A stretch of 34,341 bases of DNA from positions 1-34,341 of the forward strand of contig JADFCY010000020.1 of the NCBI GenBank assembly GCA_018263335.1, given 5' to 3'. A program made the position numbers and the translations under genes. This document shows, one piece after another, positions 1,926 to 28,856 of this stretch. Positions within the stretch are counted from its first letter, which is position 1, and each line of letters opens with the position of its first letter. The stretch is from Methanolinea sp. (lineage in GTDB: Archaea; Halobacteriota; Methanomicrobia; Methanomicrobiales; Methanospirillaceae). The notes under the pieces are model-generated. The model saw only the letters and a list, made by a program, of their open reading frames with translations, did no database searches and was not told where the DNA came from.

Positions 1926-2894
1926 ATGGAAGACACCACGATGATCTGGATAGAGAAGTACCGGCCGGTTACGCTTGCTGATATCGTGGGCCAGGACGAT
2001 ATTGTGGAGCGCCTGCAGAGTTACGTGAGGACCGGGAACCTCCCCCACCTCCTCTTCACGGGGAGTGCAGGAGTCGGAAAGACGACGGCTGCTGTCGCCC
2101 TTGCCCGGGAGTTCTTTGGGGAGTCATGGAACCTGAACTTCAGGGAACTCAATGCGTCCGATGAGCGGGGGATAGATGTGGTGCGAAACCAGATCAAGCA
2201 GTTTGCCCGGACTTCTCCGCTGGGAGGCGCCACGTTCAAGATACTCTTCCTTGACGAGGCCGATGCCCTTACTCCAGACGCCCAAGCGGCACTTCGGCGG
2301 ACCATGGAGAGCTACGCCACCACCTGCCGGTTCATTCTCTCCTGCAACTATTCCTCGAAGATCATCGATCCCATCCAAAGCCGCTGCGCAATCTACAGGT
2401 TCAGGAGTCTCTCCGCCGAGGCCATCACAAAGGAGATACTGAGGATCGCAGAGAATGAGAAGATCAGCATCACCGGGCCGGCCATCCAGGCGATCGTCTA
2501 TATCGCGCAGGGGGATATGCGTAAAGCCATCAATGCGCTCCAGGGTGCCGCAATCCTTGCACAGGAGATCGACGCAGGCATGGTCTACGCCATCACCGCA
2601 ACGGCCCGCCCCGACGAGATAGAGGACCTTTTATCCACATCCCTCTCCGGGGACTTCGAGGGAGCGGAAGCCATCCTCCACCACCTTCTGCAGGATCGCG
2701 GTATTGCGCCAAACGAGCTGATCAACCAGTGTTACAGGACGATAGTCAGGCGCGAGATGGATCCCAACCTCAGGGTCGCCCTCATCGACCAGCTGGGGAC
2801 CACGGACTTTCGCCTCTCCGAGGGGGCCAGCACCGATATCCAGATGGAAGCCATGATCGCACAGTTTGTGCTCCAGGCAAGGAAGCATGGCTAA
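1926..2894 (+). CDS. rfcS: Replication factor C small subunit, 322 aa
   Basis: AAA+ subunit of the clamp loader that opens the PCNA ring and places it on primer-template DNA. Starts with the RFC-typical WIEKYRP. Walker A GSAGVGKT lies near residues 46-53, Walker B LDEAD near 109-113, and the SRC motif with the trans-acting arginine near 152-155. The C-terminal third is the helical collar that holds RFC pentamers together. I chose the ATG at 1926 because GGGAGA stands 9 nt before it and 322 aa is normal for archaeal RfcS; upstream in-frame TTG codons add a non-conserved tail. It overlaps mcm by 8 nt, so helicase and clamp loader are probably translationally coupled. All catalytic motifs are intact, unlike the paralogue at 11715. 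Confidence 0.95.
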
Positions 2895-5028
2895 AAGGGA
2901 GGACGCTGCAGCCGCCGATGCTGCACCCGAGATAATCGATCGCGACGCAGACTGGAGCCGTTTTCTTAAAAGCAGGTATAAAAAGCAGCTCTCCGAGCTC
3001 TCCAGGGAGTATCCCTACCGGCGATCACTTGAGATCGATTACCGTGAACTGGAGAGCTACGGGCGGTCGGGACTCCGGATGGCCGACGAGCTCCTGGACA
3101 ATCCGGGGAAAGTCATCGAGGACGTGCGAAACGCCATCAAAAACCACCAGCTCGTGAAAGGGAGGGACGGAAAGGCCACAGGGGAGGTGAATGTCCGGTT
3201 CGTGAACCTTCCCAGGAAGATCGGGATTCGGCACATCCGTTCCGATCACATCAACCGTTTCATCAGCGTCGAAGGGATCCTGCGGAAGACCACCGAGGTC
3301 CGCCCCCGCATTGTCCAGGCAGTCTTCAGGTGCCCTGGCGGCCATATCACCATCAAGGAGCAGGGATACGGTAAATTCAAGGAGCCTGACGGGTGTGCAA
3401 CAGAGGGGTGCACGTTCAAGAAGCTTGACCTGATCGCAAGGCGCTCGCGTTTTGTTGACTCGCAGAAGATCCGCATCCAGGAGTCCCCCGAGGGACTGAG
3501 GGGCGGTGAGCAGCCCCAGACCCTTGACGTAGACGTGACTGACGACCTGACCGGGAAGGTCGCACCGGGCGACCGGGTGGTCATCAACGGGATACTGCGG
3601 TCCATGCAGCGGATTACCCACGGTGAAAAGAACACACTCTTTGACATCTACCTCGAGTGCAACTCAATCGAGATTGCGGAAAAGGAGTTCGAAGAGGTGC
3701 AGATCGATGAAAAAGACGAGGAAGAGATCCTTGCCCTCTCCCGTGACCCTCACATCTACCGCAAGATAATCCACTCCATCGCACCCACCATCTACGGCAA
3801 CGAAGACGTAAAGGAGGCAATCGCGCTCCAGATCTTCGGGGGAATCAGCAAGGAGATGCCCGACGGGAGCCACCTTCGGGGGGATATCCACGTCCTCCTC
3901 ATAGGGGACCCCGGCATCGCAAAGAGCCAGCTCCTCCGCTACGTCGTCAAGCTCTCGCCAAGGGCCATCTACACGAGCGGGCAGTCTTCCACCTCCGCAG
4001 GCCTGACCGCAACCGCTGTCAAGGACGAATTCGGTGACGGGCGGTGGACGCTCGAAGCAGGGGCACTGGTGCTTGCCGATATGGGGATCGCGGCTGTGGA
4101 CGAGATGGACAAGATGCAGAAGGAAGACCGGTCCGCGCTGCATGAGGCCATGGAACAGCAGTCAATCAGCGTGGCGAAGGCAGGGATCACGGCAACCCTC
4201 AAGTCACGCTGCGCCCTCCTCGGCGCTGCAAACCCGAAACTTGGACGGTTCGACGCATATCTCCCCATCCAGGACCAGATCAATATGCCAGGGTCACTCC
4301 TCTCGAGGTTTGATCTCATCTTCAAGATGAGCGACATCCCGGACCATACCAGGGACAGCGCCATCGCCGATCACATCCTCAAGGCCCACAGCATCGGGGA
4401 GACCATCGCCCAGCACAAGAGGACACCCATACCCGGAGTGGACGACGCATACATAGAGGAGCAGCTCCGCCCCGTGACCCCGGAGATAGAACCCGCGCTC
4501 TTCAGGAAATACGTCGCATACGCAAGGCGTACCTGCTTCCCGCGCCTCAGTGAGACGGCCCGCGAAGCCTTAATCGGGTATTACATGCAACTGAGGGACC
4601 TTGCGGCAGGTTCTGACAAGCCCGTCCCTGTGACCGCACGTCAGCTCGAGGCCCTGGTGCGTCTTGCAGAAGCGAGCGCCCGGATCCGCCTCTGCCCAAC
4701 TATCGAGAAGAAGGATGCCGAACGCGTGATCAAGATCGTTGACACCTGCCTGCGCGAGGTGGCCTATGACGCAAAGACCGGCTCATTTGACATCGACAAG
4801 GTCGTCACCGGGATATCAAAGGGGAGGCGGGACCTGATCAGGGTGATCAAGCAGACAATCCGGCAGATACAGAAGGACACCGGAAACGACCGGATCGCAA
4901 TCGCCGAGCTGATCGAGATGCTCATGCCCCAGGGTTTCACCCGTGAGGAGATCGATGCGCAGATCAAGGTATTCCTCCGCGAGGGGGAGGCGATGGAGCC
5001 AAAGAGCGGCTTCATCAAGCTGATCTGA
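2887..5028 (+). CDS. mcm: Replicative helicase MCM, 713 aa
   Basis: ATP-driven hexameric 3'-5' helicase that unwinds DNA at the archaeal fork. The N-terminal part carries a zinc site (CPGGH followed by a C-x4-C pair) within the OB-fold. The AAA+ core has Walker A GDPGIAKS near residues 340-347, Walker B with D405-E406, sensor-1 N449 in [10 protein letters not shown] and the arginine finger R474 in LLSRFD. A C-terminal winged helix of about 80 residues ends FIKLI. The ATG at 2887 follows AGGAAG and overlaps the rfcS stop. Length is normal and no intein is seen in the Walker A or other core motifs, a common intein site in archaeal MCMs. A run of seven T follows the stop. Confidence 0.96.
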
Positions 5029-5045
5029 ACACCGCTTTTTTTGCC
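5029..5045 (+). terminator. U-run terminator after mcm
   Basis: Seven T at 5036-5042 begin 8 nt after the mcm stop. Archaeal RNA polymerase can stop at such runs without a stem-loop. mptD begins only 23 nt later, so termination may be partial. Confidence 0.45.
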
Positions 5046-5067
5046 TCCCGGCCCAAAAAATACCACC

Positions 5068-5391
5068 ATGCAGACTGCAAGGGAGCGGGCGGCATTCGAG
5101 GCCGGGATCAAGCTCGGGGCTCTCTACCACCAGTGGGTGGGAACACCCGTCTCGCCGGGAACGGCCAGGTCCATTGAAGAGGCGATAGAGAAGAGTGTCG
5201 GGCTGCAGCCGCACGTAGAGGGGATCACCGTCCGGCTCGACAGGGGGATCATGGAGCCGAACATGTTCGGGTACTCCGAGCTGCAGGGTCTCATGCTGGA
5301 CGTCGAGATCACGACCCGCGTGGAAGGGGAGTCCTGCCGCGCCCGGATCCGGCGCGAAGGCAACTATCCGCTGATGGAGATCGTGGAGTAG
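5068..5391 (+). CDS. mptD: Archaeal dihydroneopterin aldolase (DUF372/MptD), 107 aa
   Basis: Converts 7,8-dihydroneopterin to 6-hydroxymethyl-7,8-dihydropterin and glycolaldehyde in methanopterin synthesis; cytoplasmic. The family block AFEAGIKLGALYHQ is present, with E11 and H21 ten residues apart and a late tyrosine (Y100). To my recollection this matches the active-site Glu, His and Tyr described for the Methanocaldococcus jannaschii enzyme. The ATG at 5068 gives a family-like N-terminus; an in-frame TTG at 5041 would add nine residues lacking conservation. No clear Shine-Dalgarno is present. The next gene begins on the base after its stop. Methanopterin is the C1 carrier of methanogenesis, consistent with the organism. 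Confidence 0.85.
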   Translation: MQTARERAAFEAGIKLGALYHQWVGTPVSPGTARSIEEAIEKSVGLQPHVEGITVRLDRGIMEPNMFGYSELQGLMLDVEITTRVEGESCRARIRREGNYPLMEIVE

Positions 5392-6219
5392 ATGGGCGGC
5401 GATTCGTTCCCGATCACGGACCACCACATCCATATCGATCCCCGCAATGGGAGGGGTATCGATGCCGCAAAGGACTTCAGGAGATCTGGGGGCACCCACC
5501 TGTTCCTGGTCAGCAAGCCCTCCTCATCGTTTGGGATCCTTCCCTCAAGGGGCGAGGATTTCCTCCCGGTGTTCGAGGAGACCCTGTCGGTTGCACGGAT
5601 GATATCAGAGACGGGGATCGTGGTATACCCGGTCCTCGGCGTGCACCCCGCCGAGATCACGCGCCTCCTTGACCTGTTCCCCCTGGAGAGGGCCGTGGAG
5701 ATCATGAAAGGAGGGATTTCGCTTGCCGCGAGGTTCGTTGCTGACGGTGCCGCGGTCGGCATCAAGAGCGGGAGGCCGCATTACGAGGTCTCGCAGGAGA
5801 TCTGGGATGCCTCAAACGATGTCCTCTCCTACGCATTCCAGCAGGCAGGCGAGGTGGGGTGCGCAGTCCAGGTGCACGCCGAGAGCGGTCCCTGCGCCGA
5901 CATGCAGAGGATGGCAAGCGTTGCCGGGCTCTCCCCTGACAGGGTGGTGAAGCACTATGCCGTCCCCGGGACCCCTCTTGTGCCATCGTTGCTCGCAACT
6001 CACCCCGATATCCCCGAACTCGCGGGGTCAGGGCGGGAATTCATGATGGAGAGCGACTACATGGACGAGCATTCCCGCCCGGGCGCAGTCATCGGCCCGC
6101 GATCGGTACCCCGTGTCACCACCAGGCTGCTCGCCCTGGGCAGGATCGACAGCGAAGCGGTCCACCGGATCCACGTCGCCACGCCATCCCGGGTGTACGG
6201 CGTGGACATCGTTCTCTGA
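5392..6219 (+). CDS. TatD-like metal-dependent hydrolase, 275 aa
   Basis: Member of the amidohydrolase/TatD superfamily (TIM barrel with metal ions); the exact substrate is unknown. Metal-ligand signatures are DHHIH at residues 10-14, a histidine in VHAESG (H162), H188 in VVKHY and an acidic residue in MESDY (D222). The classical TatD glutamate after strand 3 is not evident: the equivalent stretch reads GIKSGRPHY (123-131), with K125 where a ligand is expected. A carboxylated lysine, as in some amidohydrolases, is possible but unproven. The ATG directly follows the mptD stop, and GGAG lies just upstream within mptD. Archaeal copies are usually annotated as TatD-related DNases; physical linkage to mptD raises a pterin-related role as an alternative. 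Confidence 0.75.
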   Translation: MGGDSFPITDHHIHIDPRNGRGIDAAKDFRRSGGTHLFLVSKPSSSFGILPSRGEDFLPVFEETLSVARMISETGIVVYPVLGVHPAEITRLLDLFPLERAVEIMKGGISLAARFVADGAAVGIKSGRPHYEVSQEIWDASNDVLSYAFQQAGEVGCAVQVHAESGPCADMQRMASVAGLSPDRVVKHYAVPGTPLVPSLLATHPDIPELAGSGREFMMESDYMDEHSRPGAVIGPRSVPRVTTRLLALGRIDSEAVHRIHVATPSRVYGVDIVL

Positions 6220-6228
6220 TGGCCGCCA

Positions 6229-6245
6229 GTTACAGTATTATTACG
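6229..6245 (+). promoter_or_regulatory. Putative promoter for the DUF424-NMD3-Taw2-CoaBC operon
   Basis: An AT-rich AGTATTATTA lies in a GC-rich setting about 31 nt before the DUF424 ATG. There is no Shine-Dalgarno before that ATG, so a nearly leaderless transcript is likely. Confidence 0.45.
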
Positions 6246-6268
6246 CTTCCCTTCCCACATGTGGTACC

Positions 6269-6562
6269 ATGTATATGAAGGTTCACCGTTCTCCTGCCGG
6301 GGACGAGGTGGTGGCGGTGTGCGACCGTGAGCTGATGAATACGACGATCTCCGGGAACGAAGTGGAGATCAGGATCACCGGGTCTTTTTACGGGACAGCT
6401 CTCGCATCCCCAGACGAGGTGAGATCGGCGCTTTCCGGGGCAGAGAACGCAAACCTCATGGGGGAGCGAGCCGTTGCCATCGCGGTGGAGATGGGGCTTC
6501 TCTCCCGTTCAGCATGCCTGATGCTCGGGAATGTACCCCATGCACAGGTATTCCGGATCTGA
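6269..6562 (+). CDS. DUF424 family protein, 97 aa
   Basis: Small archaeal protein of unproven function. Family features seen are MYMKVHRSPAG at the start, VVAVCDREL, the SFYG turn at 39-42, NLMGERAVAIA near 62-71 and the terminal NVPHAQVFRI. DUF424 genes are often found beside translation genes in archaea, and here the next gene encodes NMD3. The ATG at 6269 gives the family-length protein; a second ATG six bases later (MKVH) is possible. The next start lies one base after its stop. Cytoplasmic, with no signal or membrane segment. Confidence 0.85.
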   Translation: MYMKVHRSPAGDEVVAVCDRELMNTTISGNEVEIRITGSFYGTALASPDEVRSALSGAENANLMGERAVAIAVEMGLLSRSACLMLGNVPHAQVFRI

Positions 6563-6563
6563 T

Positions 6564-7604
6564 ATGGATATAAGGGAGACCATCTGCCCCCTCTGCGGCA
6601 AGCCTTCGCTCGACGGGGAGGTCTGCGGGCAGTGCCGGGCGGAAAAGACGCGCTGGCTGGAATGCCCTCCCCGGGTATCCACGGTAATCTGCCCGACATG
6701 CGGGGCCAGGAAAGAGGCTGGGGGATGGTCCGACCTCCAGATCGAGAGGGATGATCTTGCCCGCCAGCTGATCACGAGGGTGATACGACTTCACCCGGAC
6801 CTTCGCGACATCGGGATGACTCTCACCCTCGACGAGATAAGCGTCAACCGCACCAGGGCCGAGTGCCTGGTCTCAGGGACGCTCTTTGGGGTGCCGGTAG
6901 AAGGGTCCTGTGCCACGGAACTAGAATGGAAGCGGGAGCAGTGCGACCGCTGCTCCAGGATCTCGGGGAGTTACTACGAGGGGGTAGTCCAGGTACGTGC
7001 TACGGGGAGGAGACCTTCACCACGGGAAGTCGAAGAGACGACAAGGATCGCCTGTGCGGTCGAGGCGTCCATGAGGGAATCAGGGGAGCGCCTCTCGTTC
7101 ATTTCACGCCTCGAAGAGCACCGGGACGGCATTGACATCACGGTGGGGTCCCAGCGCCTGGGTTCCGAGATCGCCGCCGCAATCTCCCGCGACCTTGGGG
7201 GGAGGTTCACCACCCACCCGAAACTCGTGGGGGAGAAGGCGGGCAGGCAGGTCTTCCGTATCACTTACTCGCTCCGCCTCCCCCGCTATTCACGGGGTGA
7301 TGTCGTCGTGGTCGGAGGCAGGCACATGGAAGTGCTCGGCGTGGAAGGCAGGCAGCTCCGGTGCCTGGACCATTCGTCAGGCCAGGTCAAATCAGTCCCT
7401 GAACGCCAGGTCGAGAGGAGGGCAGGCCACAAGGGCGATGCCGCCGCCTGGATGGTGGCCTTCCGGGACGGCGACCTCCTGGGAGTCCTCGACCCATTGA
7501 CCGGGGTTACCAAAGAGGTGAAGATCCCAAAGGGAAGGGAGATCTCACCTGGGACAACGGTTCGCATGCTAAAAGACGGTGACCGTCTGGTGTTGATGGA
7601 GTGA
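6564..7604 (+). CDS. nmd3: Archaeal NMD3 family protein, 346 aa
   Basis: Homologue of the eukaryotic large-subunit export adaptor NMD3; in archaea it is thought to act on 50S subunit biogenesis or ribosome recycling. N-terminal zinc ribbons are visible as C8-x2-C11, C21-x2-C24, C34 and C43-x2-C46. A hallmark CDRCSR followed by SGSYYEGVVQVR comes at about residues 133-152, followed by the conserved HxDG-like segment and an OB-like C-terminal part with repeated basic/acidic strands. Start chosen at ATG 6564, just after the DUF424 stop; earlier in-frame codons lie within DUF424. It ends where the Taw2-like gene begins, so the two are cotranscribed. Confidence 0.9.
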   Translation: MDIRETICPLCGKPSLDGEVCGQCRAEKTRWLECPPRVSTVICPTCGARKEAGGWSDLQIERDDLARQLITRVIRLHPDLRDIGMTLTLDEISVNRTRAECLVSGTLFGVPVEGSCATELEWKREQCDRCSRISGSYYEGVVQVRATGRRPSPREVEETTRIACAVEASMRESGERLSFISRLEEHRDGIDITVGSQRLGSEIAAAISRDLGGRFTTHPKLVGEKAGRQVFRITYSLRLPRYSRGDVVVVGGRHMEVLGVEGRQLRCLDHSSGQVKSVPERQVERRAGHKGDAAAWMVAFRDGDLLGVLDPLTGVTKEVKIPKGREISPGTTVRMLKDGDRLVLME

Positions 7605-7609
7605 TGACG

Positions 7610-8479
7610 ATGCGGGTGAGGGAAATCCCCGGCAAAGACCTCAGGGCACTCAGAGATGCAGAGTGGGTCGACCGGACGAGGCGGCCGTATGTCAAGGGAA
7701 CGACCGCGTACGTGCCGGTGAGAGAGGGCTATCCCTTCACCGCGACCATTCCCCCAAGGAGAACCTACTGCGGCAGGGGATACTACATGCTTGGCGACGT
7801 GGCGGTCTTCCACGGCAAGAGGCCCGGTGAAAGCGAGATCCGCGCCCTCATGGAATGGAAGAACCCGGCCGGTATCCTCTGGGTGGAATGCTGCGAGGGT
7901 GTCACGAGGACTCCCCGGGCAGAGATACTCGCAGGGAAGCCCGGTGAAGTCCGGCACCGTGAGTCCGGGATCACGTACTGGCTCGACCCTCTGCGCATCA
8001 TGTTCTCGATGGGGAACCGGGCCGAGAAAGAGCGGATGCGCTCCCTTGTCCGTCCAGGAGAAGACGTTGCCGACATGTATGCCGGGATAGGGTATTTCAC
8101 CCTCCCTGCAGCGATTGCGGGGGCGCGGGTCCATGCGATGGAGATACGTCCCCTCTCATTCTCGTATCTCGAGAGGAACATCCGGGAGAATGGTGTCGGA
8201 CACCTGGTGACCGCGGAACTCGGGGACTGCAGGAAATGCCTCGCAGGGACCTACGATCGTATCATCATGGGGCATTTCGGGGCCATTGACCATCTCCCCG
8301 CTGCACTCGCCCATTCCCGGCCGGGAACAGTCCTCCATGTGCATATGGCAGGTGATCGGACGGATGAGATCATGGCAGTCCTCAAAGCGCAGGGGGTCCG
8401 AGCCCGCGTGGAGACCCATAAGGTAAAGAAACTGGGGCCTCATACCTGGCATTACGTGCAGGACGTGACGCGCGAATGA
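7610..8479 (+). CDS. taw2: Taw2/Tyw2-like tRNA(Phe) 4-demethylwyosine aminocarboxypropyltransferase, 289 aa
   Basis: Belongs to the Trm5/Tyw2 class I SAM enzymes acting on position 37 of tRNA(Phe). IMFSMGNRAEKERM resembles the MFSxGNxxEK block of Tyw2 rather than the FSxRL type of Trm5. The SAM loop DMYAGIGYFTLP follows, then an acidic strand end in AMEIRPLS. The usual N-P-P-Y/NLP methyltransferase motif is replaced by IIMGHFG, as expected for the aminocarboxypropyl-transferring branch. I therefore prefer Taw2 over Trm5, with moderate certainty. ATG 7610 is favoured because GGAG at 7598-7601 is 8 nt away; ATG 7604 would be too close. Its ATGA overlap with coaBC shows cotranscription. Confidence 0.8.
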   Translation: MRVREIPGKDLRALRDAEWVDRTRRPYVKGTTAYVPVREGYPFTATIPPRRTYCGRGYYMLGDVAVFHGKRPGESEIRALMEWKNPAGILWVECCEGVTRTPRAEILAGKPGEVRHRESGITYWLDPLRIMFSMGNRAEKERMRSLVRPGEDVADMYAGIGYFTLPAAIAGARVHAMEIRPLSFSYLERNIRENGVGHLVTAELGDCRKCLAGTYDRIIMGHFGAIDHLPAALAHSRPGTVLHVHMAGDRTDEIMAVLKAQGVRARVETHKVKKLGPHTWHYVQDVTRE

Positions 8480-9669
8480 GTGCCTCCGGAACACTCATCG
8501 GAAAGGAGATCGTGCTCGCGGTGACCGGGAGCATCGCAGCGGTGGAGACCGTGCGGCTTGCCCATGAGCTCCGGCGAAGGGGTGCACGGGTACAGGCGGT
8601 GATGAGCCGCGCCGCCACTGGAATCATCCATCCCGATGCCCTCACATATGCGACCGGCAGGCCCGCGATCACCGCGATCACCGGCATGGTCGAGCATGTC
8701 ACCTCCTGCGGTGAGGGAGGGACCGCGGATCTCCTGCTGATAGCACCGGCAACCGCAAACACCCTCTGCAAGATCGCGGCAGGAGTCGATGACACCCCGG
8801 TCACGACCTTTGCCACCACCGCGATCGGGAGGGGAATGCCGGTGGTGGTGGCGCCTGCCATGCACGAGAGCATGTACAGGCACCCGGGTGTCGCGGGGTG
8901 TCTTTCGACCCTGCAGGGATGGGGGATCGTGGTGGCGGGCCCCAGGATCGAGGAAGGAAAGGCAAAGATCGCCGGTATCAGCGAGATTGTCCTTCTCTGC
9001 GAGCGGGAACTGATGGGAAAACCTCTCCTAGGGCGCCACGTCCTCATCACCAGCGGCCCCTGCAGGGAGAAGGTCGATGACGTGCGGATTCTCACCACCC
9101 GGTCGCGCGGGCTTATGGGCAGGGCACTCGCGATGCAGGCGTTTCGGCTCGGAGCCCGGGTCACGGTCGTCCATGGGGACCGGTTTGTAGGGGCAGAGAA
9201 CGTGCATGCTGCAGATGCCCGGACGATGCACAAGGAGGTCTGCCGGATATGCGCAGACGACCCGGTCGATCTCTTCATCTCTGCTGCCGCGGTCTCGGAC
9301 TTTTTGCCCGAACCCATGGCAGGAAAGATTCCCAGCGGAAGACCGGTAACCCTCACCCTCAATCCCCTGCCAAAGATCATTGATGATGTCGTGGACCGTT
9401 TCCATGTGCCCACCATTGCCTTCAAGCTCGGTGACGATGCCGTGGCAAGGGGAAAGGCAATGCTTCGGGACAGTATAGGGCTCGTGGTGGCAAACGATCC
9501 CCGCGCCATGGGGGAGAGAGACACCTCCGTGACGCTTCTTGGAGAAGGGGGATTCATGCGTGAAGCCTCCGGCAGCAAGGAGGCGGTTGCAGCCGAGATA
9601 CTCGATTGCGCACTTGATATCTTTCAATTTTCAAAAAAAGAGGCAAAAACCTCTTTTCCTGGAAGATAG
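8476..9669 (+). CDS. coaBC: Bifunctional CoaBC (phosphopantothenoylcysteine synthetase/decarboxylase), 397 aa
   Basis: Joins 4'-phosphopantothenate to cysteine (CoaB) and decarboxylates the product to 4'-phosphopantetheine (CoaC, FMN-dependent). The N-terminal flavoprotein half shows VTGSIAAVE, a histidine in VEHVTS, the flavin-binding APATANTLCKIA and the archaeal PAMHESMY loop. The CoaB half starts near residue 190 with LITSGPCREKVDDVR, and has the synthetase motif SAAAVSDF and a K-x-K-x-like segment after MAGKIPSG. ATGA overlap with the preceding gene. Its coding end contains a hairpin with T-run (9636-9657), so the last residues (KKEAKTSF) are part of a likely terminator. Pathway partners PoK and PPS lie 455 bp downstream. 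Confidence 0.94.
   Translation: MSASGTLIGKEIVLAVTGSIAAVETVRLAHELRRRGARVQAVMSRAATGIIHPDALTYATGRPAITAITGMVEHVTSCGEGGTADLLLIAPATANTLCKIAAGVDDTPVTTFATTAIGRGMPVVVAPAMHESMYRHPGVAGCLSTLQGWGIVVAGPRIEEGKAKIAGISEIVLLCERELMGKPLLGRHVLITSGPCREKVDDVRILTTRSRGLMGRALAMQAFRLGARVTVVHGDRFVGAENVHAADARTMHKEVCRICADDPVDLFISAAAVSDFLPEPMAGKIPSGRPVTLTLNPLPKIIDDVVDRFHVPTIAFKLGDDAVARGKAMLRDSIGLVVANDPRAMGERDTSVTLLGEGGFMREASGSKEAVAAEILDCALDIFQFSKKEAKTSFPGR
9636..9657 (+). terminator. Hairpin with T-run inside the 3' end of coaBC
   Basis: An eight-base-pair stem (AAAAGAGG pairing with CCTCTTTT) encloses a six-base loop. It lies within the last codons of coaBC, 12 nt before the stop. The T-rich 3' arm could terminate transcription. 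Confidence 0.4.
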
Positions 9670-10124
9670 CCATCGCATATCTGAATGGGCCATGGCTTGA
9701 GGTCCTGCGCCTGAACATGTGGGATAAATCCCTGACAGTCTATTTTTCCCTTCTCCAATTTTCGGATTCAGCCACATTCCCTTATCACGATAACGCTCCA
9801 TGATGCGCCCACCACGGCCCAAGGAGCGCCGTGCGGAGTACCCACGCACACGTCTGAAGTGTCCCAATCCTTCCCGCAGGCTATCTCGTCGGAGGGGGGG
9901 AGGAGTTAGATGGGGGTCCGAATCCCCCTTCATAATTGCAACAATCAGGAAATCGGCCGACCGAAATGGCCTTGATTGCTCCGGTGTCGGAAGGAAGAAA
10001 GCCCAACGCACCCTTTCCCCCCACTCCCTGGAGGACCCCGCCAATCGCGGGGATTCAGCCCTGCCGGGTCACTTTCTTAAGCTTTTAACACGAACCAATT
10101 GGAAGAAAAAGCCCAATCCCTCCC
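9670..10124. other. 455-bp stretch without a convincing gene
   Basis: No frame here shows conserved protein features. Structured pieces are a five-base-pair stem with seven-base loop at 9912-9928, a bulged hairpin at 9942-9977 (CAATCA/TGATTG and GGCC/GGCC) and a six-base-pair stem CCCCGC/GCGGGG at 10036-10052. A possible promoter for pantoate kinase lies at its right end. It could be a dispersed intergenic repeat, an untranslated RNA or a degraded gene; sequence alone does not decide. Confidence 0.4.
10078..10092 (+). promoter_or_regulatory. Putative promoter for the pantoate kinase operon
   Basis: AAGCTTTTAACA at about 10079-10090 is a good archaeal TATA candidate. Transcription would begin near 10111, giving a leader of roughly 14 nt before the GTG at 10125, and no Shine-Dalgarno is seen there. 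Confidence 0.45.
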
Positions 10125-11000
10125 GTGATTATTGTGCCCTCCTTTGCCTCTGCATTCAGCCCCGGTCATCTCTCAGGGTACTTCAGGCCCGTCTACGGTC
10201 CCGACCCTGCACACACGGGGAGCCTTGGCGCCGGTATCGTGATACGGGAGGGGGTCACGACCACGGTATGGCCTTCTGACGACACAGAAGTGACCGTAGA
10301 ACGCAGGGACCCTGTCCTGGGCAATGTAATCGAAGTATTTCACGCCTCCCCCCCCATCCGCTACCTCCTTTCACGAATGGGAGTGACTGCCAGGGTGAAG
10401 ACCGTGTGCAGCCTTCCCATAGGGGCAGGGTTCGGCCTCTCTGCAGCAGCACTCCTCTCTACTGCCACCGCGGCAAATGCCCTCTTTCGCCTCTCGCTTG
10501 GGGCATCAGAGTGTGGGGCACTGGCTCACGAGACTGAGATTGTCCACAAAACCGGCCTTGGAGACATCGCGGCCTGCATGGGGGGCGGCCGGGACTGCAG
10601 GAAGGGTGCAGGGATCATGGCTGATATCAAGCGCGAATACGACAATCCCGCGTCCCTGTGTGCCGTGGTCTTCGGCCCTCTTCCCTCTCCGGAAGTACTT
10701 GGCTCACCCGAAGCGATGGCAAAGGTCGCCCGGGCATTCCCCGGCCGCTGCCCTGGGGATATCGCGGACTTCTTTCGACTCTCCAGGAGGTTTACCGACG
10801 AGAGCGGGCTTGCCACGCCGCAGGTCCTTTCCGCACTGGCTGCCTGCGATGATGCCGGAATCCCTGCTACCATGACGATGCTCGGCAACGGCGTCTTCGC
10901 ATCCGGCGAAGGCGCCTTCCCACTGCTCTCACGCCTGGGAGAGGCCTTCCTTCTCCACCCCGCGGACGAGGGAGTCCGCCTGCTCGAGGTGGGGAGATGA
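10125..11000 (+). CDS. Archaeal pantoate kinase (GHMP kinase), 291 aa
   Basis: Phosphorylates pantoate to 4-phosphopantoate, the first step of the archaeal CoA route. The N-terminal AFSPGHLSGYF and the GHMP ATP loop PIGAGFGLSAAALL (about residues 104-117) identify the family, as does TGLGDIAACMGGG with a downstream R-x-x-AG stretch. The C-terminal third shows the usual MLGNGVFA strand. The start is GTG at 10125 (a second in-frame GTG at 10134 is possible); no ATG is available before the conserved part. The gene overlaps phosphopantothenate synthetase by ATGA. Commonly named PoK. Confidence 0.92.
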   Translation: MIIVPSFASAFSPGHLSGYFRPVYGPDPAHTGSLGAGIVIREGVTTTVWPSDDTEVTVERRDPVLGNVIEVFHASPPIRYLLSRMGVTARVKTVCSLPIGAGFGLSAAALLSTATAANALFRLSLGASECGALAHETEIVHKTGLGDIAACMGGGRDCRKGAGIMADIKREYDNPASLCAVVFGPLPSPEVLGSPEAMAKVARAFPGRCPGDIADFFRLSRRFTDESGLATPQVLSALAACDDAGIPATMTMLGNGVFASGEGAFPLLSRLGEAFLLHPADEGVRLLEVGR

Positions 11001-11728
11001 TCCCCCTAAACCATCCCCGGTACCGGTCGCTCGTCGCGAGGGAACGGCTGGCACGCTATGCTGCAGAAGGTATTGTCTCCCTCGAAGGCCTCGCAGCCCA
11101 CGGTCGCGGCGAGGCGTTTGACTATCTCCTTGGTGAGAGGACCACGGAGAGCGCCCTGCTTGCGGAGAAGGTGGCGGCCGCACTGATGCGTGGCGCAAAG
11201 AGACCTGTGATCTCTGTGAACGGAAACACTGCGGCACTGGCCGCCGAACTCCTCGCACCCCTGCAGGAGAATTCCGGAGCAAAGGTCGAGGTCAACCTCT
11301 TCCACCGGACCGAGGAGCGGATGCAGAAGATTACCCGCCTGCTCCGCGAACACGGCGTCCGTGTGGAGGAGGGGGTTGCCGAGAGGCTCCTCCCCCTCTC
11401 CCATGACCGCGCCCTTTGCCTCCGGGATGGCATCTACAGTGCAGACGTCATTCTCGTTCCCCTCGAGGATGGCGACCGCTGCCAGGCGCTGCGGAAAATG
11501 GGCAAGACCGTGATCACCATTGACCTCAATCCCCTTTCGAGGACCGCAAGGAGTGCGAGCCTCACGATCGTTGATGAGCTCACGAGGGCCCTCCCCCACC
11601 TCACCACATTCTGCTCCTCCCTTTCAGGGGAAGAGGCCGCGGTGCTCGCCAGATCCTTCAAGAACGAGTCTTTTCTGGAAGTTGCACGAAATACCATGAG
11701 ACGGGGGCTCCTCCATGCTCTGGATTGA
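10997..11728 (+). CDS. 4-phosphopantoate--beta-alanine ligase (phosphopantothenate synthetase), 243 aa
   Basis: Condenses 4-phosphopantoate with beta-alanine using ATP to form 4'-phosphopantothenate. The N-terminal [20 protein letters not shown] is the family signature. [11 protein letters not shown] (near residues 71-81), the NLFHRTEER segment and [14 protein letters not shown] near 172-185 are also conserved features of this archaea-specific family. It directly follows pantoate kinase with a 4-nt overlap and overlaps the next AAA gene by 14 nt, so the three are one transcription unit. With CoaBC the window encodes pantoate to 4'-phosphopantetheine. Commonly named PPS. Confidence 0.92.
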
Positions 11729-12728
11729 AAAGTACCGGCCTCGATCACTTGACGAGATCATCGGGCAGGAGAAGGTGGTGGAACGGCTGAAACACTTTGC
11801 CTCTTCCCGGGCCGTGCCGCACCTCGTGCTGGCAGGACCACCGGGAACAGGAAAAAGCGCGAGCGTCGAGTGCCTGGCACGGGAGCTGTACCGCGACTTT
11901 GCCGAAGAAAACCTCACCATCATCCCCACAAGCGACCTCTTCTCGCTCGGAAAGAAATTCCTCGAGGGAGAAGAGCGGTACTCCCATCTCTACCGCGCTG
12001 ACGAGAGCCTGCTCTCAAACTTCAAGCGAATCATTAGGGAGTATTCATCGGTTCGACCCCTGGATGCAGAGTTCAAGCTGATGGCATTCGAGGGGGCTTC
12101 ATCGCTGCCACGCGAGGCCCAGCAGGCGCTCCGCCGGATCATGGAGCGGTCCTCGCGGACCTGCAGGTTCATCTACTGCACGAGCCACCCCTCGGCAGTC
12201 ATCCCCGCCATTGCATCCCGTTGCCTGCCGGTATTCTTCTCCCCCATCCCGGACCCGCTCGTCGAATCCCACCTGCAGGCCATCTGCACCGCGGAAGGAA
12301 GAGGGGGATGCCCCATCAGGGAAGACCAGATCGGGCTCCTGGTTGCCGCCGCACGCGGGGATCTCCGGAAGGCCGTGATGCTCCTCCAGGTGCTCGCAGA
12401 GTCAGGCCCCGACGCAAACCTCCTCTCAATCTCCATGACAGAGACCGACCAGGTCGCGACCGCCGCGTTCTCGGCGATTCGCGCGGGTGATATCCAGGCA
12501 GGAAGGCGCAGGCTTGAGACACTCCAGATCGAATACGGCCTCTCAGGGAGGGAGGTGCTGGGGGCGCTCGGCAACGTCGTGAAGCGGGACTTTAACGACC
12601 CCCGTATCGCCTGCGCCCTCGCAGAGACCGACTGGGTGCTGGGGCACAGCCAGAACGAGTACCTCCAGCTCAATGCGCTGGTGAGCAGGATTGCAAGGGA
12701 GGCGGCAGATGTCAGGCGTCCAGGATAA
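11715..12728 (+). CDS. RFC small subunit-like AAA protein with degenerate Walker B, 337 aa
   Basis: Clearly an RFC small-subunit paralogue: it begins [16 protein letters not shown], has an intact Walker A GPPGTGKS (residues 41-48), [11 protein letters not shown], and an SRC motif with its arginine (IASRC). Aligned with the canonical subunit in this window, Walker B LDEAD is replaced by FEGAS (125-129), so the catalytic glutamate is glycine and both aspartates are lost. It may bind ATP but should hydrolyse it poorly. Three-subunit RFCs (RfcS1, RfcS2, RfcL) are known in Methanosarcina and haloarchaea, and this may be the RfcS2-type partner. It overlaps phosphopantothenate synthetase by 14 nt and the methyltransferase by 20 nt, an odd neighbourhood for a replication gene. 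Confidence 0.85.
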
Positions 12729-15553: not shown

Positions 15554-15814
15554 ATGATGAAGAAACACCTGGCCATATCTGCACTGGCGGGGTGGATCCT
15601 CCTGGTCACAGGTTTCATGATACTGGCACGGACGCTTGACCTCGAGATATTCTTCGTGCTCTGGCTGATTGGAATTCTGGTCATCGTTGAGCTGGTCTCT
15701 GACCACGCTGCTACTCCGCGTTACCTGCGATACCAGAGACTGGTCATTGCATCGGGTGTGATTCTCTTCGGGGCGATCGTAGCCCGCAAGATACTGGAGA
15801 TACTTGCACGATGA
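15554..15814 (+). CDS. Small membrane protein, 86 aa
   Basis: No family name recognised. Three hydrophobic segments are visible, at about residues 9-26, 31-50 and 64-80, with a short DHAATPRYLRYQR loop between the second and third, so it is an integral membrane protein. The start is the first of two tandem ATG codons. It overlaps the next gene by 4 nt, so it is the first gene of the MoxR/DUF58 envelope operon. A small polytopic protein at this place may help to insert or scaffold the DUF4129-like partner, but that is inference. Confidence 0.7.
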   Translation: MMKKHLAISALAGWILLVTGFMILARTLDLEIFFVLWLIGILVIVELVSDHAATPRYLRYQRLVIASGVILFGAIVARKILEILAR

Positions 15815-17595
15815 GACGACTCCCTGCACTCCTGGTGAGTGGAACGCTCATACTCGCATGCCTCCTTCTGATTGGAATGCAGGCCGGATCACCCCTCCTT
15901 TACAGCCCTCGGTCAGACCCGGGTGGCGGGGACCATTCGAACCCTGCGGCATTCGATCGGGTCAGGGGTGACCGTGCGGCCCAGCTGCTCCCCCTGATCT
16001 CCGATCTCATGGATTCACCGGGGTCGCTCGTTCTGAACATCAGGAGCGGGGACTTCGAATATGCCGCACGTGATCTCGAAAATTACCGCAAGGTCTCCAG
16101 GAACCTGGACAGTCTCGTGATCAACCTGGATATGACCGAGGGCGAGCTTTTAGAGTTCCGCAAGGCCAACCAGCAGAACCTGGCAATACTGACGGAGCTC
16201 TTCAATGGGACCGGGAGATGGAATGAACTCCAGACGCTGGAGATCAGATACAGGGACAGCGGCGACTCCCAGATGCTCACCACCATTACCTACGAGGGTG
16301 AGGCACTCCGCAGGCGGATCCAGGATCTCTACAGGGACTACCTGGAACAGGACCAGGTGATGAGAGGGACAGGTGAGAAGTTCGGCCTGGATACTTCTGG
16401 GTATGCACAGAGTGTCGTCGATTTCCGGGAGATTGTCAGCCGTATTGACCGCGAACAGCATGAGAAAATGACCACCCTGCAGACCACGGTCACGCCGGGT
16501 ATGGACACCTACCGGCTCACGCTTGGAATCGAGAGGCAACGGGTTTCGTACCTTGATGCGGTGAACATAGAGGGTCTCCTCTGGGAACACAGGAAAGATC
16601 GACCTGACGAAGTGGACCTCTTCATCGATTCAAGGAAGGCAGGTTCGATTCCCACGAAACCGGATGGCTCCTTCTCATATTCCCACCTGGTTGAGCATGA
16701 CCGGGCAGGAACTCACACCGTGTTTGCGGTCTACTCGGGGTCAGTCTTCTCGGAGATCAGGACTTTTTTTGTCGAGACGTCCGAAACCTCCCTCGAACTC
16801 AAGCCCCCCTCACTTCACGATGGGCGAGCGGGATTTGAAGGGGTGCTCCTCGCGGGATCGATTCCAGTCCGTTTTGCACCAATCGAGATCCTTGCAGAAG
16901 GGAAGCGGGCGGGGACGGCACACACAGGAGAAGACGGCAAATTTTCAGTTGACCTGAAGCTCTCTCCCGGTGACCACAAGGTTTATGCATTCTTTTCGGC
17001 GGACACATTCCCCCTTGCCCCCTCTGAAAGCGCAACCTTTGAAATTTTCGTCCCGGAACCCTCCCCTGATATCGCCGGGGAAGACGGTCTCCTCGCAAAT
17101 CCCCTTTATGGGGCAATCATTGCGATATCGTTGTGCGCCTCTTGTATCGGGGCATTCCTCTACCTTCGCCGGCAGAGGCCAAAAATCACCCCTCCGGGTC
17201 CGGTCTTCCACCTGCCCGGCGAGCGCGCTGCGATGAGCGCTGACGATGAAGAGCTTCGTCTTTCCGACGATGGGGGGCCGGTTGCAGGAGTTGTCCAAGC
17301 TGCCGGCGAGGCAGATGCAGTAGACACCGTGCCCGTCGGCGATCTCTCCTGCCTTTTCTCGGCCCTGCGGCTGGCAGTCGGAAGGCACCTGGCATTTTTG
17401 TATCCCCTCTCCCTCACTCCCCGGGAACTCTGCGCGATGTGCAGGGAACTCCCCATCCGTGCGGCGGTATGCAGGTTCACGAAGATCTATGAGCAGGCAC
17501 AATACCGCGGTGCACCTGTCCCGGACGATGAACGTGACATGATTGCAGGCGCTGCCAGGTCTGCAATAGAAGGCCTGGGGGGGGTCGATCATTAG
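15811..17595 (+). CDS. Membrane-anchored protein with Ig-like repeats and DUF4129-like C-terminus, 594 aa
   Basis: Residues 1-25 are a signal peptide or anchor. The outside part holds a long charged helical region (about 50-230) and two Ig-like beta-sandwiches (about 250-330 and 335-415) beginning VDLFIDSRKAG and FAPIEILAEGKRAG. A membrane segment (about 433-452) is followed by basic residues (RRQRP), and the cytoplasmic tail ends with a DUF4129-like domain: LTPRELCAMC, then KIYEQAQYRG at about 530-570. DUF4129 is usually found with MoxR, DUF58 and DUF4350, as here, in envelope-related operons. The fusion to Ig-like repeats is unusual: many DUF4129 proteins carry only transglutaminase or membrane parts. 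Function is not proven. It overlaps the preceding gene by 4 nt. Confidence 0.75.
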   Translation: MRRLPALLVSGTLILACLLLIGMQAGSPLLYSPRSDPGGGDHSNPAAFDRVRGDRAAQLLPLISDLMDSPGSLVLNIRSGDFEYAARDLENYRKVSRNLDSLVINLDMTEGELLEFRKANQQNLAILTELFNGTGRWNELQTLEIRYRDSGDSQMLTTITYEGEALRRRIQDLYRDYLEQDQVMRGTGEKFGLDTSGYAQSVVDFREIVSRIDREQHEKMTTLQTTVTPGMDTYRLTLGIERQRVSYLDAVNIEGLLWEHRKDRPDEVDLFIDSRKAGSIPTKPDGSFSYSHLVEHDRAGTHTVFAVYSGSVFSEIRTFFVETSETSLELKPPSLHDGRAGFEGVLLAGSIPVRFAPIEILAEGKRAGTAHTGEDGKFSVDLKLSPGDHKVYAFFSADTFPLAPSESATFEIFVPEPSPDIAGEDGLLANPLYGAIIAISLCASCIGAFLYLRRQRPKITPPGPVFHLPGERAAMSADDEELRLSDDGGPVAGVVQAAGEADAVDTVPVGDLSCLFSALRLAVGRHLAFLYPLSLTPRELCAMCRELPIRAAVCRFTKIYEQAQYRGAPVPDDERDMIAGAARSAIEGLGGVDH

Positions 17596-17611
17596 CCGCG
17601 CTGCGTGGGTT

Positions 17612-18472
17612 GTGGTGATCCTGGTACTTATCGGACTTGTTGCCGTGCTCTCACACCTCGCGTCCACGACGCTGGAATACAGCCGTTATAACCCAGAGTG
17701 GAACGGGACATCCCGCCTCTTCCAGGACATCATCGAGCGTGACGCGCTGATGATATCGAGCTTCCACGAACTCCCGGGAGGAGGCGATGCGCTCCTCCTC
17801 GTCCTTGCCCCTGGCGAAGAGTTCGCCCCCGACGAAATTGGCCTCCTGCGTTCGTTTCTCGAGGAGGGAAATGCCGTCGTGCTGGTATCTGACCGGGAGA
17901 GAGAGAACTTGCTGATTTCAGGTCTCGGGAGCACGATCCGCATTCGCGATTCGAACCTGACGAGCATTGACCGATACTATGACCACCCCTCTTCTGTCCT
18001 TGCCTTCCCTGCCGGGCAGGATCCACTCGGGGCAGGGATCTCCCGCATCGTGCTGAACAACCCTTCCTACCTCGAGGGGGGTGAGCCGGTATTTGCCACC
18101 TCGATCCTCTCCTGGATCGATGCCGATGGAGACTCGCGGCTGAGCCGCGAGGAGTCCCTCCAGAGATTCACGGTAATTGCTGCAGAAAGGGTCGGAGATG
18201 GGGTCCTCTACGTTATTTCGGACCCAAGCATCTTCATAAACGGGATGCGTGGGATCGGCATGGATGACGAAAATTACGCGCTTGCGCGGCAGATCATCTC
18301 GGCGAGACCTCGGTTGATTGTCGAGCAGGGCCATTCCCGCACCGCATATGCACCAGAGGCAATCCGAGTGGTTAATCTGGTCAAGGATTCTACCATTACC
18401 AAAATGGCTGTGATCACCCTGATCTTCCTTGCAGGATCCATACTGGTCATAAAGAGGAGGGAGGAGAGATGA
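17612..18472 (+). CDS. DUF4350 domain protein, 286 aa
   Basis: Single N-terminal membrane segment (residues 1-18), then a soluble extracellular or luminal domain of about 240 residues, then a C-terminal membrane segment (about 261-281) ending in KRREER. The DUF4350 core has the alpha/beta look LLLVLAPGEEFAPDEIGLLRSFLEEG with a strand VVLVSD, resembling a catalytically altered glutamine-amidotransferase fold. The first usual start codon is GTG at 17612, but an AT-start (ATC 17588 or ATT 17591) preceded by eight Gs would add SRAAW with a positively charged flank. It lies in the typical position before MoxR, with an ATGA overlap. Confidence 0.75.
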   Translation: MVILVLIGLVAVLSHLASTTLEYSRYNPEWNGTSRLFQDIIERDALMISSFHELPGGGDALLLVLAPGEEFAPDEIGLLRSFLEEGNAVVLVSDRERENLLISGLGSTIRIRDSNLTSIDRYYDHPSSVLAFPAGQDPLGAGISRIVLNNPSYLEGGEPVFATSILSWIDADGDSRLSREESLQRFTVIAAERVGDGVLYVISDPSIFINGMRGIGMDDENYALARQIISARPRLIVEQGHSRTAYAPEAIRVVNLVKDSTITKMAVITLIFLAGSILVIKRREER

Positions 18473-19437
18473 ACGATATCGGCGATGACCTTGCCCTCCT
18501 CTCCAGGTATTACCGCGATATTCGGGACCGAATGGGGGACTTCATCGTCGGCAACGAGCTGCTCGTCGAGCTCTGCATGATCGGGCTCCTCTCAGGCGGC
18601 CATCTCCTGATGGAAGGGACTCCTGGCACGGGCAAGACCTCCATGGTAAAGACCCTTGCCCGGCTCACCGGGTGCGACTTTGCCAGGTTCCAGTGTGCGG
18701 TAGACAGCCAGCCTGCAGATATCCTAGGAGTGCGCATCTTCGACCAGGCAAAGAGGGACTTTACCCTTCGAAAGGGACCAATCTTTTCCAATTTCCTCCT
18801 CATCGACGAGATCAACAGGCTGGCGCCCAAGACCCAGAGCGCGTTTATCGAGGCCATGAGCGAGCGCCAGGCAACTCTCGACGGGATCACCACCCGTATC
18901 AATCCTCCCTTTATAGTCCTTGCAACGCAGAACCCCTTCGAGTTCGAGGGAACGTTTCCCCTCATCGAGGCACAGAAGGACCGGTTCATGTTCTCGATGA
19001 CCCTCTCCCAGCTGGACGCAGAGGGCGAACTCGAGATCATCAGGAGGGAGCACTTGGGCAGGCTTGACTGGGACACGTTCTTCTCGACGCTTCGCCCGGT
19101 GATGAACAGCGACCTGATTCTCCGGTTCATCGCCTCTGTTTCCAGGCTGCACATCGAGGAACCGCTCCTTGGCTACATCCGCGACCTGGTAATGGCCACA
19201 AGAAGCCATGGCGATGTTCACATAGGCGCCAGTTCCCGGGCGTCTATCGCGCTTGTCAGGGGGACCAAAGCGCTTGCAGCGCTCAGGGAACGCTCCTATG
19301 TCATCCCCGATGATATCAAGGAACTTGCCCCGCGAGTCCTCATGCACCGGATTATTCTCACCAGGGAAGCCGAGATCAGTGATATCACTCCAGGCCGTGT
19401 GATCGCCGAGATACTGGAACGCGTCGAGGTGCCATGA
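18469..19437 (+). CDS. MoxR-family AAA+ ATPase, 322 aa
   Basis: AAA+ ATPase of the MoxR group, which acts as a chaperone or assembly factor for membrane and metal-enzyme proteins. Walker A GTPGTGKT lies at about residues 50-57 and Walker B LLIDEINR at about 109-116. The following KTQSAFIEAMSERQ, sensor-1 region LATQNPFEFEGTFPLIEAQKDRF and C-terminal helical lid are complete. In many genomes MoxR is paired with DUF58 as here. It overlaps the DUF4350 gene by 4 nt and the DUF58 start lies three bases past its stop. Cytoplasmic, probably acting on the membrane partners of the same operon. Confidence 0.93.
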   Translation: MNDIGDDLALLSRYYRDIRDRMGDFIVGNELLVELCMIGLLSGGHLLMEGTPGTGKTSMVKTLARLTGCDFARFQCAVDSQPADILGVRIFDQAKRDFTLRKGPIFSNFLLIDEINRLAPKTQSAFIEAMSERQATLDGITTRINPPFIVLATQNPFEFEGTFPLIEAQKDRFMFSMTLSQLDAEGELEIIRREHLGRLDWDTFFSTLRPVMNSDLILRFIASVSRLHIEEPLLGYIRDLVMATRSHGDVHIGASSRASIALVRGTKALAALRERSYVIPDDIKELAPRVLMHRIILTREAEISDITPGRVIAEILERVEVP

Positions 19438-19440
19438 CCC

Positions 19441-20736
19441 GTGGAAGCGACGCGTTCTACATGGGGATTTATCTTTGCGGCCATCGGAACCCTTCTCTTT
19501 GCATGGTTCCTTGACTCGGTCCCCGCACTCTTTTTTTCCGCGTTCATCGCAGGGTTCCTGGTGTTCCGGGCAATCGCATTTATCGGGCGTGCCGGAACCG
19601 CGGCATCGATGATCACCGTTGAGCGGGTTGCAAAGCCCGAGTGGACCAGGCAGGGGGGAGTGGTGACGGTCTCGACCTCTGTCCGCATCACGGTACCAGA
19701 GGGGTTGTCTGCCAGGGTTTGCGACCTCCCTCCACCAGGGGCACCGGTGGTTCACGGCCTGGCATGCTCGCCAGAAGCGGGTGCCGGGGACCATGCACTC
19801 AACCTTCGGTACGGGGTGTCCTGCCTCTCCAGCGGAAATATCCGGTGGAGGGGAGTTGATCTCATGGTCTCCGACAGGTTCTTCTCTCTCGTGCTGCCCT
19901 TTCGCGGTGATAATTTCCGTTCACCTGTCATCAGGGTGGACCCCGTGGGCAAATACCAGAAAAGGGAGGGACTTGGGTTCTTCGGGGAGAGGGATCTCGA
20001 GAAGCTCACGGTGCTGAAAGGGACGGGTGTCAGATCGTTTCGCGATTACATGCCCGGTGACGACCCCCGTTCCGTTGACTGGAAACTCTCTGCAAAGCAC
20101 GGGAAACTCTTTGTTCGCGAGTATGCGGGCTTGTCCGGCACACACCCCCTCCTCGTCGTGGATCTCCCCGACGGGGCAGTCCCATGCCCGTATGACTTGA
20201 GGGATACGGTGGTCGGGGCAGCCCTTGATGCTGCACGGGAGATGGTCAACGGACCGCATGGCTGCAGCCTGATGGTTATCTCCGGGGCAAACCTCCTTTC
20301 CTTCCTCCCAGACGAGCGGTCACTGCACAAGGTCGAACGATCGCTCCTTGAATACCACTCTCCCCAGCGTCCGGTCCAGTGTTTCCGCACACTCGACCCG
20401 ATCGCTGCAGAGGCGCTTCGTACCCGCCTTTCTGGCAGCTCCGCGGTACATGGCAGCCTCGAGAGGCGTCTTCTCCAGGTGTATTCCCGATTCATCCCGG
20501 AGATCCGGCCCCTCCCTTTCGATATCCAGTGCACCAAGGCGCTTGGACGCAGGGGAGAGACCGCATTGCACGTGCTGACCACCGGGACGGGGGATATGAG
20601 TCACCTCGCCACGCTTGGCCTGCAGGCCCGGCGGCTGAATATCGAGGCAAGCCTCGGCCTCCCTGATGCGACCGCAACCCCGGGTCTTGTCCGACGTCTC
20701 CGGGGCATGGGGTATTCCATCGTCAGGGTGGTCTGA
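19441..20736 (+). CDS. DUF58 domain protein, 431 aa
   Basis: Two N-terminal membrane segments (about residues 8-26 and 29-48) are followed by a variable beta region. The DUF58 core then has the signature RSFRDYMPGDDPRSVDWKL at about 198-216, followed by ARTG-like KLFVREY. DUF58 proteins sit at the membrane with MoxR and often resemble VWA domains; here a MIDAS-like DLPDG (LLVVDLPDG) occurs near residue 238. The GTG start at 19441 has GAGGTG about 10 nt upstream; an out-of-frame ATG nearby is not used. It ends TGATG with the next gene. Function is thought to be delivery or maturation of envelope proteins, not proven here. Confidence 0.9.
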   Translation: MEATRSTWGFIFAAIGTLLFAWFLDSVPALFFSAFIAGFLVFRAIAFIGRAGTAASMITVERVAKPEWTRQGGVVTVSTSVRITVPEGLSARVCDLPPPGAPVVHGLACSPEAGAGDHALNLRYGVSCLSSGNIRWRGVDLMVSDRFFSLVLPFRGDNFRSPVIRVDPVGKYQKREGLGFFGERDLEKLTVLKGTGVRSFRDYMPGDDPRSVDWKLSAKHGKLFVREYAGLSGTHPLLVVDLPDGAVPCPYDLRDTVVGAALDAAREMVNGPHGCSLMVISGANLLSFLPDERSLHKVERSLLEYHSPQRPVQCFRTLDPIAAEALRTRLSGSSAVHGSLERRLLQVYSRFIPEIRPLPFDIQCTKALGRRGETALHVLTTGTGDMSHLATLGLQARRLNIEASLGLPDATATPGLVRRLRGMGYSIVRVV

Positions 20737-28624: not shown

Positions 28625-28856
28625 ATTCAGATCCTCCAAGGAGAGAAAGGAGGTAATCCTATAAAAAGACCGAGAGAATGAACCTGCATAACCACTCTCA
28701 ATTCTTTAGTGAAATTCCACAATAGTCCCAAATTGCGAGTGATTAGGAAGTATATCAGGTTTTTTGCACCCTTTTCTGTTTTCGAATATTATTAAAGAAA
28801 ACAAATAATAATGTTTATCTTCCCAGGTGAGGAGTACCTCGTAGGTGGAGTACAAT
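28625..28856. promoter_or_regulatory. Divergent promoter region of the secreted protein and the dual protease
   Basis: On the minus strand CTTTTTATAGG (28659-28669) is a TATA box about 40 nt from the ATG, leaving a short leader with GGAGG. For the plus-strand protease gene, AAATAATAATGTTTAT at about 28802-28817 is the likely TATA region. The leader holds a small GAGG/CCTC hairpin and the ribosome site AGGTGGAG at 28843-28850. The AT-rich middle has no gene. Confidence 0.45.

Follow-up and report, generated by a model that had tools for sequence, protein, structure and literature searches.

The second small subunit of replication factor C (RfcS2) in Methanolinea sp. belongs to a family that keeps, without variation, the face acting on a neighbour's ATP and has lost most of what acts on its own. 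Loss of the Walker B motif is a family trait of RfcS2 in the phylum sampled and is not an error. It is very likely that RfcS2 takes the terminal E position of an RfcL-RfcS1-RfcS1-RfcS1-RfcS2 pentamer, where it would serve as a non-hydrolysing stator and give its arginine finger to RfcS1. That RfcS2 is an end subunit is already known: the RFC of M. acetivorans is reported to consist of three kinds of subunit at 3:1:1 (PMC3984812), with one copy of RfcS2 per pentamer and a single small-subunit interface (PMC2880001, PMC3984812). In those parts of the literature that our search reached, neither the Walker B loss nor the insert described below was found stated for RfcS2; Chen et al. (2005, 2009), on the M. 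acetivorans RFC, may already report part of this.

The rfcS2 gene lies in a 34,341 bp stretch of contig JADFCY010000020.1 (assembly GCA_018263335.1), hereafter the window, and the genome has one full-length copy (Table 1). The encoded protein matches the NCBIfam model for RfcS2 (NF009067) over residues 1-329 with 373.8 bits (cut-off 317), and falls below the cut-off of the model for the ordinary small subunit (200.3 bits versus 303). Its nearest named relatives come from Methanolinea and Methanoregulaceae assemblies of the order Methanomicrobiales. Separate, intact RfcS1 and RfcL coexist with RfcS2 in the source genome, the former in the window and the latter on another contig (G000:C13; 315.8 bits, cut-off 280). 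PADLOC gave a weak match of RfcS2 to mad8 (20.6 bits), which we take as a shared P-loop, and an identity as a defence-related AAA protein was dropped.

Table 1. Coordinates of the clamp-loader genes, the adjoining ligase gene and the RfcS2 motifs in the window.
Feature	Coordinates	Strand	Basis
RfcS1, catalytically intact small subunit	1926..2894	+	NCBIfam NF001679, 487.1 bits, cut-off 303; ATG at 1926
4-phosphopantoate--beta-alanine ligase	10997..11728	+	3' end overlaps the rfcS2 start by 14 bp
rfcS2, replication factor C small subunit 2	11715..12728	+	ORF of 337 aa
Walker A GPPGTGKS (residues 41-48), intact	11835..11858	+	Lys47 in 152/152 RfcS2
RfcS2-specific insert region (residues 72-97), strand beta-2 to helix alpha-4	11928..12005	+	Length comparison
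Switch position Ser98 (Arg in RfcS1)	12006..12008	+	Aligned column
Degenerate Walker B FEGAS (residues 125-129)	12087..12101	+	Alignment with RfcS1 and RfcS2 relatives
Coupler helix QQALRRIME (residues 136-144)	12120..12146	+	Gln136, Arg140, Arg141 and Glu144 in 152/152 RfcS2
Sensor-1 position Ser157 (Asn in RfcS1)	12183..12185	+	Aligned column
SRC motif (residues 168-170) with arginine finger Arg169	12216..12224	+	Ser168 and Arg169 in 152/152 RfcS2

Motif counts were taken from an alignment of 152 distinct RfcS2 sequences (82 from Methanomicrobiales and 70 from other families of the phylum) with 44 rows of RfcS1 or single RfcS. The 152 are not independent: exact duplicates were removed and near-copies kept, and a few copies are incomplete or frameshifted (for example L046 and L099). 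The Methanomicrobiales rows leave out fragments under 150 aa (L100, L106, L109), the outgroup (L101-L104), sequences that are not RfcS2 (L002-L006) and L001, which is the window's own gene again. The other 70 are the best 30 plus 40 chosen by hand from the same list, with four (L176-L179) scoring below the family cut-off; the list comes from a search of 246 genomes, of which 136 have a match above that cut-off. The 44 RfcS1/RfcS rows comprise 29 loci (30 genomes), the window RfcS1 and 14 loci (16 genomes), and represent 43 genes, the window RfcS1 being the same gene as locus L200; G191 of the 30-genome set and G152 and G158 of the 16-genome set were left out, having no usable full-length sequence. 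The RfcL sample consists of 29 sequences from 30 genomes searched.

Where RfcS1 has the Walker B sequence LDEAD (2250-2264), RfcS2 has FEGAS, so that the catalytic glutamate is Gly127, the first aspartate Glu126 and the second Ser129. This agrees with the preliminary description of this DNA, which reported FEGAS for LDEAD, a catalytic glutamate changed to glycine and the loss of both aspartates relative to the subunit at 1926; the span that it gave (12084-12101) encodes AFEGAS, and the first aspartate is replaced by a residue that is itself acidic. Glu126 might hold magnesium. The same description rightly had Walker A and SRC as remaining. That description did not mention two further differences from RfcS1: RfcS2 also lacks the switch and sensor-1 residues, and it contains an insert, about 21 residues long, that RfcS1 does not have.

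These losses extend across the family. Of 152 RfcS2, 11 have the catalytic glutamate, 15 the second aspartate of the DExD box, 9 the sensor-1 asparagine and none the switch arginine, versus 44 of 44 RfcS1/RfcS rows for each. The Asp-Glu pair, likewise found in 44/44 of those rows, occurs in four RfcS2 (L074, L082, L084, L099), which still have neither the switch arginine nor the sensor-1 asparagine. FEGAS is one local form, found in 26 of the 82 Methanomicrobiales sequences, and glutamate in place of the first aspartate is confined to that order (59/82 versus 0/70). Outside Methanomicrobiales the commonest form is LDNAE (34/70). The preliminary description had proposed an alignment with RfcS2 of Methanosarcina and haloarchaea; among the 70 RfcS2 from other families of the phylum, 67 lack the catalytic glutamate. 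In Methanocalculus chunghsingensis, RfcS2 (L084, 8001-8978) has FDEAD, an apparently restored Walker B, with the switch and sensor-1 residues still gone; its near relatives L083, L085 and L108 have FDCAD. An RFC-like subunit from another genome of the same phylum (L226, genome G158, family code f15) has an aberrant Walker A in the alignment (GQKDSVKQ) and VLFEADR at Walker B, and is possibly a case of separate, deeper degeneration or a misaligned protein.

The residues that serve binding and the neighbouring subunit are kept. In Walker A, Gly41 and Gly46 are as invariant as Lys47 (152/152 each), and no exception occurs at the finger or coupler positions listed in Table 1. In the T4 clamp loader, Gln118 is reported to tie the DExD strand to the arginine-finger helix and Arg122 to contact the second aspartate of the preceding subunit's DExD box (PMC8121543). 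By the QxxLR pattern, and in a register that is our own match, these would correspond to Gln136 and Arg140 of RfcS2. Catalytic sites, finger and coupler are all intact in 44/44 RfcS1/RfcS rows. In work by Chen et al. from 2005, Walker A and SRC mutations in MacRFCS2 reportedly left clamp loading in vitro unimpaired, in which case the finger would not be essential there.

The large subunit tends the opposite way. In 29 of 29 RfcL the protein's own site is intact (Lys, switch Arg, Asp, Glu, second Asp and Asn), and 9 of 29 have an arginine in the aligned finger column. We therefore dropped the strict claim that RfcL lacks a finger, and the register of its helix in the Gln136 and Arg140 columns is uncertain. 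Judged by these motifs, the losses in RfcL and RfcS2 affect roughly opposite faces, both of which are complete in RfcS1, a pattern that the chain RfcL-RfcS1-RfcS1-RfcS1-RfcS2 explains directly. Against an E-position stator we count the possible magnesium ligand Glu126, the FDEAD of L084, the three other sequences with an Asp-Glu pair, the nine RfcL with an arginine in the finger column, the tolerance of MacRFCS2 mutations reported by Chen et al. and the fold comparisons given below.

In such a chain, the ATP site of RfcS2 would open onto the gap where the ring ends, with no neighbour to supply an arginine finger, and catalysis there would thus be dispensable. RfcS2 probably keeps a nucleotide bound through its intact Walker A as a structural plug, without hydrolysing it; this could equally be ATP or ADP, the latter being reported in the E subunit of yeast RFC (PMC8893722). 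On the opposite face, Arg169, backed by the Gln136/Arg140 coupler helix, would complete the ATP site of the last RfcS1 in trans, and RfcS2 would cap the chain so that no further small subunit could add. The insert probably faces the DNA channel or the C-terminal domain of RfcL. It may act like the eukaryotic E-plug, and we propose DNA, PCNA or the RfcL C-terminal domain as possible contacts. Judging from sequence and from published end subunits, capping, nucleotide holding without splitting and finger donation are the most likely roles of RfcS2. Two features expected of an E-position stator were found, a degenerate site of its own (Gly127, Ser98, Ser157) and a retained finger for the neighbour (Arg169). 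The suggestion in the preliminary description of a non-hydrolysing stator in a heteromeric loader fits well with the family-wide loss and the invariant neighbour face, but the loss is not exceptional, being the normal state of RfcS2.

The window protein is predicted to have a clamp-loader subunit fold (pLDDT 88.5). Among the 50 Foldseek matches listed, the highest query TM-score (0.69) belongs to the E chain of yeast Rad24-RFC (7st9_E) and the lowest E-values to archaeal RfcS. In VIA-align the highest Z scores are those of B-position chains, with E chains having lower rmsd (4.7-5.2 Å) and slightly lower Z. We dropped the assignment of the E position by fold, as these rankings do not single out E chains and domain orientation in a single-chain prediction is unreliable.

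The degraded site could also reflect plain decay, in which RfcS2 is an end cap whose ATP site, freed from constraint, is drifting, and any bound nucleotide has no regulatory role. This is compatible with the end position and disputes only a function for the dead site; we consider it plausible, if on balance doubtful. At the catalytic position, RfcS2 sequences have N, G, D, E, S, C or A. On an earlier unrooted tree of 67 rows, with five trait columns left out, the state 'glutamate or not' changes six times, the RfcS1/RfcS2 split included, and the position thus still moves within RfcS2. Pairwise dN/dS of RfcS2 against five relatives is 0.067-0.135, above the 0.015 and 0.043 of RfcS1 in the two pairs compared. 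On the other hand, the invariance of Lys47, Gly46 and Gly41 suggests that nucleotide binding is still selected, and the LDNAE form, held by about half of the sequences from outside Methanomicrobiales, argues against free drift in that group.

On a tree rooted with RfcL, 35 RfcS2 rows form one clade (support 98/100; 97% of bootstrap trees) that includes the window protein, most simply read as a single origin within the sample. Deep branching in this tree is weak, as the outgroup row OUT_L102 falls among RfcS1/RfcS.

Instead of the main loader, RfcS2 might serve an alternative one, analogous in archaea to Ctf18-, Elg1- or Rad24-RFC. As a second paralogue with a divergent face and an insert of its own, encoded apart from rfcL, it would suit such a role. 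Eukaryotic alternative loaders, however, are reported to change the A subunit and have the other four in common (PMC8893722), the RFC of M. acetivorans is reported to combine three kinds of subunit at 3:1:1 (PMC3984812), and all three RFC genes of H. volcanii are reported to be essential (PMC7776575), which makes this reading improbable.

Hydrolysis of ATP by RfcS2, with Glu126 or another residue replacing the lost glutamate, seems highly improbable. Glu126 is present in the window protein and in 59 of 152 sequences, and the Asp-Glu pair persists in four. Nevertheless, the switch arginine is missing in 152/152 and the sensor-1 asparagine in 143/152, and at the end position there would be no trans finger, a point for which we draw on PMC3740443.

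A sequencing error or a pseudogene, which the preliminary description would have suspected had close homologues carried an intact DEAD, is practically negligible: the separately assembled relatives L036 and L037 (94-95% identity) share FEGAS, which together with the low dN/dS indicates a conserved gene under purifying selection, the loss is family-wide, and the one interrupted rfcS2 encountered (G101, its match split in two frames) has no parallel in the window gene.

Between strand beta-2 and helix alpha-4, all RfcS2 contain an insert, about 21-27 residues long (40 in one). The span of residues 66-120 is 55 residues long in the window protein and 55-61 across RfcS2 (74 in one), compared with 33-34 in 44/44 RfcS1/RfcS rows and 31-37 in the 29 RfcL, and a phmmer match of RfcS2 against solved RfcS breaks at this place. 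Its anchors, Phe76 (146/152), Lys/Arg80 (141/152), Lys/Arg88 (146/152) and an aromatic residue at 89 (147/152), show stronger conservation than Walker B. Since a regular expression for the motif found 110 of 152 RfcS2 (and 0 of 44 RfcS1/RfcS rows), our statements on the insert rest on its length and on counts per column. The structure model of the window protein shows short helices here (block pLDDT about 88-95). The insert averages +2.0 charges in the 34 LDNAE sequences, presumably haloarchaeal given their net charge, against -25 for the whole proteins, which suggests contact of the insert with nucleic acid in that group. The Methanomicrobiales insert has a mean charge of -0.8, and such contact is not suggested there.

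The eukaryotic E-plug is described as a beta-hairpin with which the E subunit reaches into the major groove (PMC8893722, PMC11067034). We rejected the insert as its homologue. In our own, unaligned reading of one yeast Rfc5 peptide printed in PMC8893722, the hairpin-like stretch precedes Ser-Asp. The RfcS2 insert comes after Ser73-Asp74, and its model is helical. The insert is possibly an independent counterpart, an analogue, of the E-plug. We entertain, tentatively and as a rather unlikely extension, that archaea and eukaryotes separately evolved one kind of end subunit, with the catalytic site lost, the neighbour-serving face kept and a DNA-facing plug gained in the beta-2/alpha-4 connection. 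The insert, with Phe76, basic residues at 80 and 88 and the aromatic residue at 89, would then be an archaeal E-plug in place of the switch segment that senses DNA, and would block or grip DNA inside the chamber of the loader.

Among known systems, the closest is RfcS2 of the M. acetivorans and H. volcanii type, whose model the window protein matches; loss on the proximal side, an intact finger and the insert are common to relatives from many families of the phylum. The window protein differs in having glutamate for the first Walker B aspartate and glycine at the catalytic position, where 57 of the 70 sequences from outside Methanomicrobiales have asparagine. RfcS1 and the single archaeal RfcS (solved as 2chq and 1iqp) have the same fold and domain order, but lack the insert and retain the Asp-Glu pair, switch arginine and sensor-1 asparagine in 44/44 rows. 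Bacterial delta-prime is not known to bind a nucleotide, in contrast to RfcS2 with its intact Walker A. Delta-prime is reported as a single-copy E-position subunit without ATPase (PMC3331839), as we propose for RfcS2. The Rfc5/E subunit is described as ATPase-incompetent, with a natural Walker B change (D141N) and no trans finger, and as holding ADP (PMC3331839, PMC3740443, PMC8893722, PMC11067034). Yeast Rfc5 and human RFC3 thus resemble RfcS2 in a natural Walker B loss, in the absence of hydrolysis (predicted for RfcS2) and in an element added in the beta-2/alpha-4 connection (PMC3740443, PMC8893722, PMC11067034). Rfc5 keeps the glutamate and loses the aspartate, whereas RfcS2 mostly loses the glutamate.

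The motif loss in one protein becomes a rule for one archaeal phylum: wherever found, a second small subunit of this family has a degraded ATP site and keeps its helping face. Given one-faced losses at opposite ends, the order of subunits in a clamp loader may be readable from sequence. A loader of three proteins is a simpler natural system than one of five for asking why non-hydrolysing end subunits persist, and the conserved insert is a concrete element that could be deleted in Haloferax or Methanosarcina.

Directly upstream of rfcS2 are coenzyme A genes, coaBC, pantoate kinase and phosphopantoate--beta-alanine ligase (8476-11728, +). The ligase and rfcS2 are adjacent in 65 of the 69 loci with enough upstream sequence (loci including L036-L099 and L105-L108); the four without this adjacency, L101-L104, are from outside Methanomicrobiales. 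In the window, rfcS1, mcm and rfcS2 all lie within about 11 kb (1926-12728), and several other genomes likewise have rfcS1 and rfcS2 on one contig, separated by about 9-12 kb. Directly adjoining rfcS1 is a gene for a DDE transposase (DDE_Tnp_1; 148-1686, -). At 28845-33602 (+), a single protein of 1585 aa combines a subtilase, a papain-family protease, a lectin-like domain and several PKD domains, and contains long runs of PTTVPTT-type repeats. Finally, a MoxR-type ATPase adjoins a DUF58 protein at 15811-21203 (+), a common arrangement, and more ORFs lie on the same strand.
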